Shown here in pieces: positions 51,845 through 60,449 of a DNA stretch of 64,000 bases. The stretch is taken from positions 124,001-188,000 of the forward strand of contig JADZEW010000008.1 of NCBI GenBank assembly GCA_020850325.1, read 5' to 3'. The stretch comes from Methanoregulaceae archaeon (lineage in GTDB: Bacteria; Armatimonadota; Fimbriimonadia; Fimbriimonadales; Fimbriimonadaceae). Positions within the stretch are counted from its first letter, which is position 1; each line of letters begins with the position of its first letter. A program made the translations under genes and the position numbers. The notes under the pieces were generated by a model. The model was not told where the DNA came from. It worked only from the letters and a program-made list of their open reading frames with translations, and made no database searches.

Positions 51845-52786
51845 CTATCCGCCGGGCGGGGCTTCTCCGTTTTGGGGCCAGCGCTTTGCCATCGAGGCAT
51901 CGAGCGTCCATCGTTGATACGCGGTGGGATCAAACCCTGCGGGAGAGCTCGACGCGACAAGGCCGTGACGCAACCGGTCTGCCAGTCTGAACTGACGCTT
52001 TAACCCAAACCTCAACCGGCGAATCTGCTCGCGAAGCGCGGATCTGGTCTTGGCTGGTCCCACCGGTGGCGATTCCCACTTGACGGCGTAATCGCTCTGA
52101 ATGGCTGGTTCGGCTAAGGGAGGGACCGACGACATCTTGCGGGCTCGGAAGTACATCAGGGTCGCGTGGGAGTTGATGAGGGTGACGCGCCTACCCAAGG
52201 TCGCCGGGTCAAGGACCTCATACACGTCGTAGCGGTCGAAGCCCTTGGTCGCTTGCTCGTGAAGGAACACCCCTTCGAGGAGGAATCCATTCGCCGGGGA
52301 TAGGGTTCGGAAAAGGAACTCAGGTGAGAACTGGTAGAAACCGTGCCCCAAGTGGTTGTTAGCAGTCGTGACTCCGACAAAGTGGCCACCAACCGCAACA
52401 AGCCTCATCGCATTTGACCATGCCGTCCGGACGTCGAAAACATGCTCGAGCGTGCCCCCGTCGAACACCAGAGAGTAGCTGCCCGCCAGGGTCTCGGGAA
52501 TGGGCTCGTTGAGGCTATGGACGATCGAGGCCCCCTCATAGGCCGAGGCATCCATCGATTCGACCTCCGACGCACCGAGTGCCCGGAACAGCCCATCGGC
52601 GTAGGGCGCATCAGCCGTCAACCGCTGAGCATCTAGCCCGGCCGATTCTAGGTCACGCAACGCCAGGTCGGTCTCCCATGGTGCGCAATGCAGGTTCTGA
52701 CGGCCAAGCATGAGGCTTCGTTCGAACGAGACCCCGGTTTGCGATGCCAGCACTAAGAACCGCAATGCGCATGCGTCAACCCCCAT
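51845..52786 (-). CDS. Class I SAM-dependent methyltransferase-like protein
   Basis: Protein of 313 residues. The recognisable core is YSLVFDGGTLEHVFDVRTAW, with the acidic motif I and EHV-type motif, followed by FVGVTTANNHLGHGFYQFSP, typical of methyltransferases acting on small molecules or glycans. Motif I at the N-terminus is weak, so activity is unproven. Opposite in strand to its pilT neighbours. The start is ATG 52786, with a -10-like CATAAT (52795-52800) 8 nt upstream and no Shine-Dalgarno site. Confidence 0.6.
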   Translation of the reverse strand: MGVDACALRFLVLASQTGVSFERSLMLGRQNLHCAPWETDLALRDLESAGLDAQRLTADAPYADGLFRALGASEVESMDASAYEGASIVHSLNEPIPETLAGSYSLVFDGGTLEHVFDVRTAWSNAMRLVAVGGHFVGVTTANNHLGHGFYQFSPEFLFRTLSPANGFLLEGVFLHEQATKGFDRYDVYEVLDPATLGRRVTLINSHATLMYFRARKMSSVPPLAEPAIQSDYAVKWESPPVGPAKTRSALREQIRRLRFGLKRQFRLADRLRHGLVASSSPAGFDPTAYQRWTLDASMAKRWPQNGEAPPGG

Positions 52787-52794
52787 CAATCGCG

Positions 52795-52800
52795 ATTATG
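52795..52800 (-). promoter_or_regulatory. -10-like hexamer before the methyltransferase-like gene
   Basis: Minus-strand CATAAT, 8 nt before ATG 52786. Possible leaderless promoter. Confidence 0.3.
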
Positions 52801-52890
52801 TGCCAAGTGCCGCGCTTCTTCGCCGAAGATCGCGTGATTCTTCGGGCTAAACTAGATGGGCGCCAGAATAGGCCGGACGGAGGAAGCACC

Positions 52891-53982
52891 TTGGCCCTTG
52901 TTATCGACGAACTGCTGCGGGATCTCGTGAATCGTGAGGCGAGCGATCTGCACTTGACCGCGGGACAACCGCCGGTCATGCGGATCCACGGTGAGTTGCA
53001 TCGGATGCCTGTCCCTGCGATCACCGAGCCCGAACTTGAGAAGCTGCTCTTTGCGCTGCTCTCTGAGGATCGGAGGAAGAGGCTTTATGAGCAGCGCGAA
53101 CTCGACCTCTCTTACTTTGTCGAGGGTGCGGCACGATTCCGGGTCAATATGTTCTGGCAGCGGCATCGATTAGGTGCCGTCTTCCGCGTCATCCCGTACA
53201 AGATCCGAACGATCGATGAGCTGAGATTGCCTCAAGTTTCGAAGCAGTTGGCATTGCTTCCCCGCGGTCTGATATTGGTAACCGGCCCCACGGGATCGGG
53301 TAAGTCGACGTCGCTGGCCGCGATGATCAACCACATTAATCTGAATCAAAAGGCGCACATCATGACGATCGAGGACCCGATCGAGTATGTCCACGAAGAC
53401 AAGATGTGCATCGTAAACCAGCGCGAACTCGGAACGGATACCTTCGCGTTCCACGAGGCCCTGCGCCACGTGATGCGGCAAAACCCCGACGTCATCTTGG
53501 TCGGCGAAATGCGCGACTTGGAGACGATCCAGCTCGCCATTACCGCGGCAGAAACTGGGCACTTGGTGCTCTCGACGCTTCACACCGTCGACTCCGCCCA
53601 GACGATCGACCGGATCATCGACGTCTTCGATCCCGACCAGCAGGCACAGATTCGCACGCAGCTCAGCGTCACGCTCCGGGGCATTTTGTCGCAGACGTTG
53701 GTGCCGACTAAGGACGGCAAGGGCCGTGTGGGCGCGTTTGAGGCGATGGCGGTTACGCCGTCGATCCGCACACTCATCCGCGATGGCAAGACTCACCAGC
53801 TCTACAGCGAAATCCAAACCGGTGCCGACGAAGGAATGCAGACTCTGGACAGCGATCTGTTACGCCTCGTCGAGACTGGCCAGGTTGAGTTCGAACAGGC
53901 AATTGCCAAGTCGTCGATCCCCACCGAGTTCATGAGAATGGCTCAGAAGCGGGGAGTCGTGGAGGCACCAACCCATGCATGA
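52891..53982 (+). CDS. PilT-family retraction ATPase, second paralogue
   Basis: Protein of 363 residues. TTG 52891 with GGAGGA at 52879 decides the start and gives a canonical PilT N-terminus (EASDLHLTAGQPPVMRIHG). Walker A GPTGSGKSTSLAAMI, Asp box MTIEDPIEYVHEDK, Walker B PDVILVGEMRDLETI, His box TGHLVLSTLHT and the C-terminal IRTLIRDGKTHQL helix are all present. The best classical PilT of the three. Overlaps the third copy by 8 nt. Confidence 0.94.
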   Translation: MALVIDELLRDLVNREASDLHLTAGQPPVMRIHGELHRMPVPAITEPELEKLLFALLSEDRRKRLYEQRELDLSYFVEGAARFRVNMFWQRHRLGAVFRVIPYKIRTIDELRLPQVSKQLALLPRGLILVTGPTGSGKSTSLAAMINHINLNQKAHIMTIEDPIEYVHEDKMCIVNQRELGTDTFAFHEALRHVMRQNPDVILVGEMRDLETIQLAITAAETGHLVLSTLHTVDSAQTIDRIIDVFDPDQQAQIRTQLSVTLRGILSQTLVPTKDGKGRVGAFEAMAVTPSIRTLIRDGKTHQLYSEIQTGADEGMQTLDSDLLRLVETGQVEFEQAIAKSSIPTEFMRMAQKRGVVEAPTHA

Positions 53983-55186
53983 ACGAATTGAACGACTATT
54001 GAGACAGACCGTCAACATGGACGGGTCGGACCTTCACTTTAAGACCGATACCGGCAAAGTGTACGTCCGGGTCTACGGTCAACTGATACAACTTGAGGAT
54101 GAGCCGCCCTTCCTGAGCGATGATTTTCAGAAGGCGCTGTTCCAGATGTTCTCCGAAGATCAGCAGAAACGCTACTACAAGGAGCACGACCTCGACTTCG
54201 CCACTGAGGTCCCAGGCGTCGCTCGGTTCCGTGGGAACGTCTACCAGCAGCGCGGCTGCACCCAAGCCGCCTTCCGCGTGATTCCGTACACCGTCAAGTC
54301 GATGGAGGACTTGATGTTGCCGGCAGCGGTGTACGATTTCATCACCAAGCCACGTGGCTTGGTGCTGGTCACCGGACCGGCTGGCTCGGGCAAGTCGACT
54401 TCATTGGCGTCGATGATCGACCGGATCAACTCGACCCAGTCGGTCCACATCGTCACGGTCGAGGACCCCATTGAGTTCGTGCATGACGACAAGAAGTCGC
54501 TGATCCACCAGCGTGAACTGTACGAAGACACGCTCACGTTCTACAACGCGCTGAAGTATGTGCTGCGACAAGACCCCGACGTTATTCTCGTCGGTGAAAT
54601 GCGCGACCTTGAGACCATTCACCAGGCGATCACCTCGGCGGAAACTGGACACTTGGTCTTTGCGACCCTGCACACCGTCGACGCCGTTCAGACGGTGGAC
54701 CGTATCATCGACGTGTTCCCAACCCACCAGCAGCAGCAGATCCGCATGCAGCTCTCCGTCAACCTCGTCGGGGTGCTTTCGCAGACCTTGGTGCGGCGCA
54801 AGGATGGCCGTGGCCGCGTTGCCGCCTATGAGGCACTCGTGGCATCGAACGCGATCCGTAACCTCATCCGCGAGAACAAGAGCTATCAGATCGGCTCGAT
54901 GATCCAGACCGGCATGAAGCAGAAGATGCAGAGCCTGGACCAGTCTTTGGCGCAACTTGTTGCAAAGGGCATAGTGGACCTCGAGGAGGCCCGATCGCGG
55001 GCGAAGGACCCCGGCGAGTTCATGCGACTGGTCGAGTTGGGTGAAAGCGCGTACCTGCAAGCGCATCCGGCGGCAACCCCGCCCCCGCCTTCGTCTCCTG
55101 CATTTGGCGAGCCCCCCACTTCGGGTGAGCCGCCTGCTTCGGGTGTCCGCGGACAACCTTGGCGTCCTCAGGTGAAGCGGGACTAG
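53975..55186 (+). CDS. PilT-family retraction ATPase, third paralogue with Pro-rich tail
   Basis: Protein of 403 residues with Walker A GPAGSGKSTSLASMI, Asp box VTVEDPIEFVHDDK, Walker B PDVILVGEMRDLETI and a C-terminal AIRNLIRENKSYQIGSMIQ helix. A Pro/Ala/Ser-rich extension of about 40 residues follows the catalytic domain (from about residue 362), absent in the two sisters. Pairs with the second copy in translation (8-nt overlap) and may form a mixed PilT/PilU-like motor; that is inference. Confidence 0.94.
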   Translation: MHERIERLLRQTVNMDGSDLHFKTDTGKVYVRVYGQLIQLEDEPPFLSDDFQKALFQMFSEDQQKRYYKEHDLDFATEVPGVARFRGNVYQQRGCTQAAFRVIPYTVKSMEDLMLPAAVYDFITKPRGLVLVTGPAGSGKSTSLASMIDRINSTQSVHIVTVEDPIEFVHDDKKSLIHQRELYEDTLTFYNALKYVLRQDPDVILVGEMRDLETIHQAITSAETGHLVFATLHTVDAVQTVDRIIDVFPTHQQQQIRMQLSVNLVGVLSQTLVRRKDGRGRVAAYEALVASNAIRNLIRENKSYQIGSMIQTGMKQKMQSLDQSLAQLVAKGIVDLEEARSRAKDPGEFMRLVELGESAYLQAHPAATPPPPSSPAFGEPPTSGEPPASGVRGQPWRPQVKRD

Positions 55187-57238: not shown

Positions 57239-57898
57239 ATGACCGATAGCCTTTCCCCGCGCGAGCGTTTGATCCTTGAACTAGCCGCGAAGGGCCATAC
57301 CGACAAGGGAATCGCTGCCGAGATTGGCATAGCGCCATCGACGGTTCTCACGTATTGGTTGCGCATTCGGTCAAAGCTCGGGCCGCACCCGCGGGCCGAA
57401 CTCGTCGGCGCATTTGTTCGAACCAATGCTGAACTTGGTGTTGCCCAGCTGAAGGCCGATCTCGACCAGCTGCTGGCAAAGTCAGAACAACTCGACCGCG
57501 AACTCTCGGTTTTCAAGCAGTTCATCGAGAGCGCACCCGAAGCGATGCTGATCATCGGCGATGACGGGATCATTCAGTTGGGGAATGCCCAAGCCGCCGA
57601 GATGCTCGAAGTCCCGGAGGAAACGCTGGCCGGCACCCCCGCGGAGCGATTCGTACCTGAAGAACTGCGGGCGATCCACCAGATCCACCACATGAACTAC
57701 ATTCGGGAGCCCCAACGCCTGCAGATGGGGCATGCGGGCGGCGTACCGATGATCACGGGGCGTGGGCGGCGCATCCATGGGATCGCTATGCTCAACCACG
57801 CCAAGACGGCCAGCGGCTCCGCGGTCATTCTGATCATGCGCCCGCTGCAAGATGAGCCGCTGTGGGATCGGGGAGAACCGATCGCTGAAAGGGATTGA
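57239..57898 (+). CDS. Regulator with N-terminal LuxR-type HTH and PAS domain
   Basis: Protein of 219 residues: a LuxR/GerE-like helix-turn-helix at the very start (SPRERLILELAAKGHTDKGI, then IAPSTVLTYWLRIRSKL), a coiled-coil of about 30 residues (about 67-95), then a PAS domain (ESAPEAMLIIGDDGIIQLGN). The order HTH first, sensor last is uncommon for LuxR regulators. Probably a soluble transcription factor sensing through PAS. Two kilobases from the riboswitch locus. Confidence 0.8.
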   Translation: MTDSLSPRERLILELAAKGHTDKGIAAEIGIAPSTVLTYWLRIRSKLGPHPRAELVGAFVRTNAELGVAQLKADLDQLLAKSEQLDRELSVFKQFIESAPEAMLIIGDDGIIQLGNAQAAEMLEVPEETLAGTPAERFVPEELRAIHQIHHMNYIREPQRLQMGHAGGVPMITGRGRRIHGIAMLNHAKTASGSAVILIMRPLQDEPLWDRGEPIAERD

Positions 57899-57912
57899 TT
57901 CAAAAGCCGACA

Positions 57913-58677
57913 ATGAAGGGGATGAGGTTTCGGGTTGTTACGTTGTTGGCGGTTGCTTCGGCGATTTCCCAAGCTCAAGTGGATGTGATCGACGGGATCA
58001 CGTTTGCCGACGAGCCGGGCATCACCTTCGTGCCGATCAAAGAAATCGGATTTCGGGTGGGTTGGGAGATGACCAGCGACCAAGATGGGTTCTACGTGAA
58101 CGGAACGCCCGTTCAGACGCCTCGTCAGCTCTTTGACGGCACCCGGCTAGCTCGGCTGCGCGAGCTGACGGCCTTAGGCGTGGGAGTAGGAACCTTCGAT
58201 GGCTACGAGGTCCCGATCTGGTTCGAGGGCCGCGACTTCATCGTTCGGCGCGGAACGAAACGCGTCGTCATCAACAAGGCCGAGCAAAAGCTGCGGGCCT
58301 TTCAAGGTGATCGCCTGATCATAGAGACCCGAGTCTCGACCGGACGACGAGGCTACACGACGCCGAATGGCACGTGGACGGCCGGGCCCGAGAAGTCCCG
58401 AATGCGCTACTCGAGGAAGTACGACAACTCCCCCATGCCTTGGGCGGTTCAAATCTGGAACGGGTACTTCATGCACGGCTACCCGAGCGTGCCGAAGCGC
58501 CCAGCATCGCACGGGTGCGTGCGGCTTCTGGTCCGAGAGGGCAACCCGGCCAAGTGGATCTGGCACTGGATTGACCTAGGCACGCCCATCACGATTGCTA
58601 ATGACTGGGCGAACACCGATACTCTGGTGGCGAAGCAGAAGCCGACCGAGCGCGAAACGATCCCGGTCGGCAACTAG
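57913..58677 (+). CDS. Exported L,D-transpeptidase (YkuD)
   Basis: Protein of 254 residues: signal peptide (about 1-20), an N-terminal domain like those of copper-amine-oxidase or stalk-type repeats (ITFVPIKEIGFRVGWEM), then a YkuD catalytic domain with MHGYPSVPKRPASHGCVRLL. The nucleophile Cys is in SHGCVRL and its His in MHGYP. Makes 3-3 cross-links or attaches proteins to peptidoglycan; fits the wall gene content of this window. Confidence 0.88.
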   Translation: MKGMRFRVVTLLAVASAISQAQVDVIDGITFADEPGITFVPIKEIGFRVGWEMTSDQDGFYVNGTPVQTPRQLFDGTRLARLRELTALGVGVGTFDGYEVPIWFEGRDFIVRRGTKRVVINKAEQKLRAFQGDRLIIETRVSTGRRGYTTPNGTWTAGPEKSRMRYSRKYDNSPMPWAVQIWNGYFMHGYPSVPKRPASHGCVRLLVREGNPAKWIWHWIDLGTPITIANDWANTDTLVAKQKPTERETIPVGN

Positions 58678-58679
58678 TG

Positions 58680-59021
58680 CTATCGTTCGGCTTCGGCCAG
58701 TACGTCGGCCAAGGGAACGCTCACGTGACCCTCGCGGGTGTTGATGACGCCCTGCTGTTCGCGACGCCGTCTTCGCTGGAGCAACGCCTCGTGGGCGGCC
58801 TCCAAGTGATACAGCGCCGCCGCGTTCTCCTCACACCCTAGGTCGCGGCCCTGGTGATCCAACAACCGCTCCTGCAAGACTTCGATCACGTCTTCAATGC
58901 GGCACCCGTTGATGCCGACTTGGGGCACCGGTCCCCGCTGAAAAATGATATGAATAAACGGCTTCATCACGAAGCCATCGCTCCCGTCCATCGACCGGAA
59001 CCGTTCCATATTCTCGCTCAT
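58680..59021 (-). CDS. Acb2-like cyclic-oligonucleotide-binding small protein
   Basis: Protein of 113 residues. Residues 26-45 read IFQRGPVPQVGINGCRIEDV and about 65-92 ENAAALYHLEAAHEALLQ followed by RRRRREQQGV. Both match, from memory, the Acb2/Tad1-hairpin family, small hexameric proteins that bind cyclic di- and trinucleotides and were found in phages as anti-CBASS sponges. ATG 59021 with GGAG 10 nt upstream is chosen over TTG 59027. Its only upstream neighbour is a c-di-AMP riboswitch, so the gene is probably controlled by that nucleotide. Binding residues cannot be confirmed by eye. Confidence 0.7.
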   Translation of the reverse strand: MSENMERFRSMDGSDGFVMKPFIHIIFQRGPVPQVGINGCRIEDVIEVLQERLLDHQGRDLGCEENAAALYHLEAAHEALLQRRRRREQQGVINTREGHVSVPLADVLAEAER

Positions 59022-59073
59022 ACGCAAAATCTCCTTGCGCGTCCAAAACCGCGCCGCGTAGAGAGGCCAAAAA

Positions 59074-59195
59074 CCTCTTTCGATGAGCCTACGGGGTTAG
59101 CTGACGGGCTCGGGCCAAAAGCTACCCTACGCTTGCGCGATTCGCCCCCTAAGTTGGGTCCCCCGCTCCGGCAAAACCGGATTCGGCATTCACCG
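59074..59195 (-). ncRNA. c-di-AMP riboswitch (ydaO/yuaA type)
   Basis: Conserved blocks of the ydaO/yuaA aptamer occur in order on the minus strand: GCCGAAUCCGG with GCCGGAGCGGGGGACCCA, then GGGGGCGAAUCGCG, CCCGUCAGCUAACCCCGUA followed by GGC, and AUCGAAAGAGG. Order, spacing and pairing (59074-59195) fit RF00379. The element ends 53 nt before ATG 59021. Its expression platform may be the GCGCG/CGCGC hairpin at 59037-59054, which abuts the AAGGAG site, so control could be translational. Confidence 0.9.
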
Positions 59196-59228
59196 CTATG
59201 TTACTCCGCAACGCGAGCCTGAGTTCCG

Positions 59229-60449
59229 CTAGGCTTCGCTGACCTCGGGCTCTCTGGCGTGCCCGACGGGTAGGCGGATGAAAAACGTGGACCCCTGGTT
59301 GAGAGCGCTTTGGACGTTGACTTGGCCCCCATGCGCCTCGACGATGTGCTTGATGATGCTGAGACCAAGTCCGGTTCCGCCCGTCGAACGGGAGCGTCCC
59401 TTATCCACCCGGTAGAAGCGCTCGAAGATCCGCGGCAAATGTTCGCTGGCGATCCCCATGCCGGTGTCCCGAACCATGATCACGACCTGGTCGCCCTCCG
59501 GCTGGACCATCACGTCGACAGAGCCCTCGCTGGTGTAGTTGATCGCATTGTCGACGAGGTTGATGGCAACCTGGCTCATCTGAGCCTGATTCGCCTCGAT
59601 GATCAGGTCGCTTGGGCCATGGAACTCGATCTTGAGCCCTTTGTCATGCGCCTTTGGGCTGAGCTGCTGGGCGACCGAGCGAAACACCTCGGCCACATTG
59701 CAGCCCTGTTTACGCACCGGGTTGCTCTCGGCGGCACTAAGGATGAGGAGATCGTTGGCGATGAGCGAGAGCCGATCGACCTCGGCAATGATCTTCGCCA
59801 AGTACCGATCAAGCAGTTCGTGGTTGTCTGGTTCGTCTTGCAGCGTCTCCGCCATGGCGCGGATCGTAGTGAGCGGAGTCCTCAGCTCATGCGAAACATT
59901 GGCGACGAAGTCCGTTCGGACCCGCTCCAGCCGCCTCAGGTCCGTCGTCTCGTACAGGGAGAGGAAAATCCGATCGCCGTCAGGTTCCATCCACGCTTCG
60001 GCCAATGCCGTGCGCTCGTCCGGATACGCGAACGTCAGTTCGGCGTGCTGCTTTTCACGGGTTTGGGCGCAAGCGGTGACGAGAGACTCTAAGTCGTACG
60101 ATAGGGTAACCGCTAGGATCGAGCGTCCGATGGGGTTATCGAACTTGAACATCTCGGTGGCTTTGCGGTTGGCGTAGAGGATCATCGGGCGGGTGTCGCA
60201 GAGGAAGACCGCGATCTCAAGCCCCTCGGCTAGGAGATCGACCGCGTTCCGCTGGCTCTCTAGCTTCGCCTCGAGTAGGGAAGCGCGACTGCGCTCACGC
60301 TCTAGATTACGTCGGGCTTGGTGCGCTTGCCGTTGGAATCCGATCCCGGAAGCGAAGGCGGCTAGGATTGCGCCGACAACTGCGGGCACCACCATCGCGG
60401 GCACCATCATCGCAACAATGGAGAGAACGATCACCAAGCCAAAGCCCAC
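59229..60449 (-). CDS. Membrane sensor histidine kinase (PhoR/WalK-like)
   Basis: Protein of 406 residues with GTG start; in-frame TAA lies 14 codons upstream. Two N-terminal helices (about 3-35) flank almost no loop, then a PAS domain (about 70-175: FLCDTRPMILYANRKATEMF), the HisKA box ANVSHELRTPLTTIRAMAE with the phospho-His, and HATPase with NLVDNAINYT, DTGMGIASEHLPRIFERFYR, GGTGLGLSIIKHI. A response regulator is not adjacent. Sensing is likely via the PAS domain because no large extracytoplasmic domain exists. Confidence 0.93.
   Translation of the reverse strand: MGFGLVIVLSIVAMMVPAMVVPAVVGAILAAFASGIGFQRQAHQARRNLERERSRASLLEAKLESQRNAVDLLAEGLEIAVFLCDTRPMILYANRKATEMFKFDNPIGRSILAVTLSYDLESLVTACAQTREKQHAELTFAYPDERTALAEAWMEPDGDRIFLSLYETTDLRRLERVRTDFVANVSHELRTPLTTIRAMAETLQDEPDNHELLDRYLAKIIAEVDRLSLIANDLLILSAAESNPVRKQGCNVAEVFRSVAQQLSPKAHDKGLKIEFHGPSDLIIEANQAQMSQVAINLVDNAINYTSEGSVDVMVQPEGDQVVIMVRDTGMGIASEHLPRIFERFYRVDKGRSRSTGGTGLGLSIIKHIVEAHGGQVNVQSALNQGSTFFIRLPVGHAREPEVSEA

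Follow-up and report, generated by a model that had tools for sequence, protein, structure and literature searches.

Why should a riboswitch for the second messenger cyclic di-AMP (c-di-AMP) stand directly in front of a gene whose product resembles the cyclic-nucleotide sponges, so far known as phage weapons against Thoeris and the cyclic-oligonucleotide-based antiphage signaling system (CBASS)? The question arises from a 64,000-nt stretch of DNA, here called the window (G000:C8:124001-188000), in a genome of the Fimbriimonadaceae (G000; a 3.5-Mb assembly, 98% complete). An earlier note, written from the sequence alone, had placed a ydaO/yuaA (c-di-AMP) aptamer at 59074-59195 of the minus strand, directly upstream of a gene for a 113-residue Acb2-like protein with no phage genes around it. 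The Rfam model RF00379 matched the aptamer over its full length at 59070-59198 (score 85.6 bits, gathering score 38; window-wide E = 1.6e-18), within a few bases of the proposed ends, and was the sole Rfam match within the window. The gene starts 48 nt beyond the end of the aptamer on the same strand, behind a Shine-Dalgarno sequence, and its direct flanks carry a histidine kinase gene upstream and an L,D-transpeptidase gene downstream, with no phage genes, so that in these respects the note was borne out (Table 1).

The protein belongs to the superfamily named in the note, as judged by sequence and predicted fold, and is a distant relative of Tad1 (Thoeris anti-defence 1; PDB 7uav, 8smd, 8kbb-8kbh), nearer to Tad1 than to Acb2 (anti-CBASS 2). 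As a single sequence it recovered gp184 (5e-8) and Tad1 (6e-8) in a phmmer search of the PDB, and a profile of 33 relatives reached Tad1 at 1.6e-15, with the homology spanning about 80 residues. An AlphaFold model (mean predicted local distance difference test score, pLDDT, of 78, with values near or above 90 for residues 41-90) gave Tad1 as all of its best 20 Foldseek matches in the PDB, with E values from 1.4e-5. Its confident matches were Tad1 without exception, and the matched structures included complexes with glycocyclic ADP-ribose (gcADPR) and with cyclic trinucleotides. The VIA fold comparison with Tad1 yielded Z 8.7 over 92 residues (rmsd 3.3), and the best unrelated row had Z 6.4. 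In the model two strands precede a helical hairpin and the N-terminus is of low confidence and shorter than that of Tad1, which has a four-stranded N-terminal sheet and forms a hexamer of dimers. Acb2 shares the helical hairpin (PF24729, Acb2_Tad1_hairpin, groups it with Tad1) and is likewise a small cyclic-nucleotide sponge, as the window protein is a small predicted nucleotide binder; Acb2, however, is described as all-helical and phage-encoded, and the window gene is chromosomal. No Acb2 chains were among the listed sequence or fold matches, an absence from a list that is not proof. The two strands before the hairpin and the GxNG loop argue for a Tad1-like protein where the note had proposed Acb2 specifically. 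PF24729 itself did not match the protein at E<=1; its reach is short, because a CmTad1 fragment barely passes (28.8 against a cut-off of 27) and a gp184 fragment is also missed. Scans of the protein against Pfam, NCBIfam and PADLOC returned nothing significant, and its matches in PHROGs were unnamed phage families.

Conservation within the protein is consistent with a ligand pocket. Both alignments show no variation at Q28, G30, G36, N38, G39, C63, E65, N66, R83, R87, Q90 and H99, and N66, R83 and R87 aligned with identical Asn, Arg and Arg residues in CbTad1, CmTad1 and gp184. The GxNG loop is invariant among relatives, and its motif is common to the window protein, CmTad1 and gp184. Small size is a further likeness to Tad1.

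Of 291 Armatimonadota genomes examined, 68 had Tad1-like relatives; these genomes represent 26 genera and two families, all within a single order, the Fimbriimonadales, and many of the genes occupy neighborhoods common to several genera. The window species and its sister species differ at 36 codons without effect on the protein and at 3 with an amino-acid change (dN/dS 0.017), which shows strong purifying selection on the gene. We tested acquisition from a phage: neither the GenBank phage records (50,697) nor the plasmid records (72,556) held a match to the protein, and six viral contigs in IMG/VR carried relatives at 44-49% identity. The gene is chromosomal and vertically inherited, not a phage gene. 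Known Tad1 proteins, in contrast, are encoded by phages or prophages and block immune signaling, and the family described here differs further in standing under a c-di-AMP riboswitch in part of its lineage. One Tad1-like subgroup (loci L096-L099, L136, L138 and L140-L147) has a conserved C-terminal tail, TED...FSATGA or FSATGS.

The pairing of aptamer and gene recurs beyond the window. An aptamer lies upstream of, and on the same strand as, a Tad1-like gene in genomes G000, G001, G008, G011, G017, G024, G030, G048 and G059; it thereby stands at the head of the transcription unit for 9 of the roughly 48 homologues, from six genera, with aptamer-gene gaps of 46 to 806 nt. Three further genomes (ACE_ARM7, BC.035 and Uphvl-Ar1) also carry the pair. 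Chance would give about 0.02 cases against the nine observed, a contrast that kinship among the genomes inflates. On the gene tree, explaining where the aptamer occurs takes about four gains or losses, of which branches with good support force at least three; in the clade of G000, G001, G011 and G024 all four members have the aptamer. Because the pair recurs in relatives with different flanking genes, which vary between genera, its coupling is supported, and more strongly so than from the window alone. One genus (g30; G048 and G059, loci L072-L075) has two paralogues in each genome: the copy in the shared neighborhood is without an aptamer, and the other copy has an aptamer and a helical neighbor. 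A search for diverged aptamers ahead of the G041a and G060b genes found none. The coupling is recurrent, not general.

The leader RNA suggests, from folding predictions in both members of the genus of the window, a translational OFF switch in that genus. The AAAG at 59077-59080 is the putative 3' P7 strand, predicted from the ydaO structure to pair with an internal-loop CUUU in the bound aptamer. A predicted hairpin that would hide an anti-Shine-Dalgarno sequence shares two bases with this strand, and sequence comparison showed its stem retained in the sister species with an altered loop. In RNAfold the Shine-Dalgarno sequence was unpaired with a probability of 0.91 when P7 was free and 0.41 when it was occupied; the sister species gave 0.75 and 0.36. 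A terminator-type expression platform was searched for between the aptamer and the gene at the window locus and none was found; the GC hairpin just 5' of the Shine-Dalgarno sequence is not terminator-like, because it lacks a U-tract. The Bacillus subtilis ydaO riboswitch is also an OFF switch (PMC5575661). Since folding predicts OFF, the sequence does not point to a plain negative-feedback sponge whose amount would rise with the messenger.

Which nucleotide might the protein bind? A diadenylate cyclase, the c-di-AMP synthase, was present in all 78 good-quality genomes of relatives. In the window genome neither SMODS CD-NTase, the one CD-NTase family searched, nor the ThsB TIR gave a match at the chosen thresholds, and the single TIR_2 match was sub-threshold. 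Tad1 uses one and the same set of pockets for gcADPR and for cyclic dinucleotides, with weak binding of c-di-AMP (PMC12043709), and the Acb2 of phage T4 binds 2',3'-c-di-AMP at about 62 nM (PMC12657218). Given the cyclase in every good-quality genome, the lack of SMODS CD-NTase and ThsB matches, and these binding data, we infer that c-di-AMP is the most likely ligand. In Panoptes (OptS/OptE), too, an Acb2/Tad1 sponge meets a c-di-AMP isomer (2',3') within a host circuit; there, however, the sponge belongs to the phage, the isomer is a decoy, and no riboswitch takes part. The known ydaO/yuaA regulons (ktrAB, kimA/ydaO, kdp, wall peptidases) share the aptamer family and, probably, the OFF polarity, but their targets are potassium or osmolyte transporters and wall enzymes, and a Tad1-family target is absent from the literature searched. 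In the open-access literature, with subscription papers outside the search, no paper linked c-di-AMP riboswitches with Acb2/Tad1 control, and none linked c-di-AMP with Armatimonadota.

Outside the genus of the window, one or two small open reading frames (ORFs; about 90-130 aa) lie between the aptamer and the Tad1-like gene. Such small helical ORFs intervene in 7 of the 9 aptamer-bearing loci, with none at the window locus. Their products form a loose family that is also found behind other c-di-AMP aptamers; the window genome has five c-di-AMP aptamers, and three of the four others head small helical genes. They are probably partners of the Tad1-like protein in most aptamer-bearing genera. The loci also point to small unannotated helical proteins as a kind of target that c-di-AMP riboswitches control repeatedly. 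In genome G060 a 239-aa ORF (L094:7835-8551, minus strand), with no aptamer upstream, fuses a helical stretch to a Tad1-like domain, and the helical half weakly resembles the small neighbor proteins. The AlphaFold model of one small helical protein (pLDDT 93) was a generic three-helix bundle with no significant fold match. Homology of these proteins to the Tad1-like hairpin was rejected (hhalign probability 0.1%), and the idea that they are a hidden Acb2 found no support, Acb2 being absent among the fold matches of the model. The aptamers before small unannotated helical genes in the window genome are at L148 (G000:C35:79636) and L149 (G000:C26:115170 and 111675), and further aptamers heading helical genes of about 90-130 aa were seen at L036, L044, L058, L062-L064, L155, L156 and L158.

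We explain the locus as one where c-di-AMP controls a binder of the Tad1 fold, a reading to which we give a probability of roughly 40%. Computation establishes the aptamer, the gene, its family, the recurrence of the pair and the selection on the gene, whereas we infer the ligand, the polarity, the role as buffer or receptor, and the helical partnership. In this reading a c-di-AMP riboswitch would have gained control of a Tad1-family protein that is chromosomally encoded, inherited vertically and equipped with a cyclic-nucleotide pocket. At low c-di-AMP, the RNA 3' of the aptamer would leave the Shine-Dalgarno sequence open and the protein would be made; at high c-di-AMP, the bound aptamer would form the P7 pseudoknot, the anti-Shine-Dalgarno sequence would be freed, and translation would drop. 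The protein itself would most likely bind c-di-AMP in its conserved Tad1 pocket. Acting as buffer or receptor, it could then soak up the c-di-AMP remaining at low messenger and so make the low-c-di-AMP state sharper. In Bacillus, some riboswitch-controlled targets, such as potassium transporters, also bind c-di-AMP; if the Tad1-like protein does so, the messenger would act on both mRNA and protein in the same way.

Several points weigh against this explanation. The ligand residues of CbTad1 are reportedly F82, N92, R109 and R113 (Leavitt et al. 2022), the last three of which correspond to N66, R83 and R87 of the window protein. Where CbTad1 has F82, the window protein (His56) and its clade carry His, and most relatives carry Phe or Tyr; to judge from the alignment, this His could mean that ligand binding is changed or weakened. 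The affinity of known Tad1 for c-di-AMP is weak. For about 39 of the roughly 48 homologues no aptamer lies within some 1 kb, and in most species the protein therefore works aptamer-free. The earlier note had named relatives whose small gene lies away from the aptamer as grounds for refutation, and these exist in part: most homologues do without the aptamer, yet the pair occurs in six genera, far more often than chance would allow. At five other loci the same simple folding test gave a small P7 effect or none, and the polarity claim is therefore limited to the genus of the window. An OFF switch on a sponge, moreover, gives positive and not homeostatic feedback.

The pocket may serve another nucleotide. 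If it held gcADPR, a CBASS cyclic di- or trinucleotide or some other nucleotide, the protein would be a domesticated host sponge for immune signals whose dose c-di-AMP tunes with osmotic or growth state. Among solved structures the nearest are those of anti-defence Tad1 proteins, in part with bound gcADPR or cyclic trinucleotides, the pocket residues are retained, and a few viral contigs carry the relatives at 44-49% identity noted above. We consider this somewhat unlikely, as the window genome showed no SMODS CD-NTase or ThsB TIR match and TIR_2 only below threshold, vertical inheritance and strong purifying selection fit housekeeping better, and an immune sponge would hardly be expected to take its input from a c-di-AMP switch. 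The exchange of Phe82 for His in the window clade also fits a protein that kept the fold, lost nucleotide binding and works in a regulatory complex with the small helical proteins of the same mRNA, shut off by c-di-AMP. The helical genes between aptamer and Tad1-like gene in seven of nine loci and the L094 fusion favor such a complex; yet the window locus has no helical gene, the similarity of the fused helical stretch is weak, and the invariant Asn/Arg/Arg and GxNG loop suit a ligand pocket, so we hold this to be unlikely.

A true negative-feedback sponge would need an ON switch, with high c-di-AMP inducing a protein that sequesters it. It accords with the feedback loop imagined in the earlier note and with the sponge activity of Tad1 and Acb2 (PMC12043709; PMC12657218), but folding gives OFF at the window locus and in the sister species, as does the characterized ydaO switch (PMC5575661), which makes it improbable. 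Least probable, in our view, is that the adjacency is incidental, the aptamer having served a helical gene since lost in the genus of the window and the Tad1-like gene having no c-di-AMP role. Three other aptamers of the window genome do head small helical genes, and such a gene intervenes in other genera; against this stand the leader stems retained in the sister species while their loops changed, the direct 48-nt spacing with a Shine-Dalgarno sequence, and the recurrence of the coupling in six genera.

Returning to the reading of a Tad1-fold protein under c-di-AMP control, we tentatively propose, at less than even odds, that in a non-viral bacterial lineage Tad1-family proteins have become a receptor or buffer for the c-di-AMP of the cell itself, and that riboswitch and helical partners wire them into a dedicated messenger-handling circuit. 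A known kind of anti-defence protein may thus have joined the cell's own c-di-AMP circuit in the little-studied Fimbriimonadaceae. If so, a sponge fold would be at work in host messenger physiology as a new kind of c-di-AMP protein target, linking immune-signal sponges with housekeeping second messengers, and the phage Tad1/Acb2 sponges would share ancestry with a housekeeping second-messenger binder.

Table 1. Features of the riboswitch locus and its neighbors, in window coordinates
Feature	Position	Strand	Basis
L,D-transpeptidase (YkuD) gene, downstream, convergent	57895..58677	+	Pfam YkuD, 1.3e-20
113-aa Tad1-like protein gene (P0001), Acb2/Tad1 hairpin superfamily	58680..59021	-	ATG at 59021, stop ending at 58680
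Shine-Dalgarno AAGGAG	59031..59036	-	Sequence
GC hairpin, GCGCG-loop-CGCGC, just 5' of Shine-Dalgarno, without U-tract	59037..59054	-	Sequence and RNAfold
Putative anti-Shine-Dalgarno UCUCU; predicted partner GGAGA (59030-59034) when P7 is formed	59060..59064	-	RNAfold
Predicted hairpin AGAGGUUUUUGGCCUCU hiding the anti-Shine-Dalgarno	59062..59078	-	Sequence comparison and RNAfold
Putative P7 pseudoknot 3' strand AAAG	59077..59080	-	Comparison with family consensus alignment
c-di-AMP (ydaO/yuaA) riboswitch aptamer, RF00379	59070..59198	-	cmscan, 85.6 bits, all 134 model positions
Sensor histidine kinase gene, upstream	59229..60449	-	Pfam HATPase_c, HisKA, PAS; adjoins in sister species too (synteny)

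Elsewhere in the window, 52744-55186 of the plus strand holds a tandem pair of adjacent PilT-type ATPase genes, recognized by eye from their translations. Several Fimbriimonadaceae place a c-di-AMP aptamer before hisB (imidazoleglycerol-phosphate dehydratase), an unusual target (L039, L040, L043, L048, L056 and L164-L166); the hisB identity was confirmed by Pfam at L048 only, and, judged by eye, such aptamers also precede other his genes. Pfam assignments of the downstream ORFs placed further aptamers of relatives before genes for DnaK, a sigma-70 family factor, CsrA and a major facilitator superfamily transporter (L045, L052, L061 and L163).
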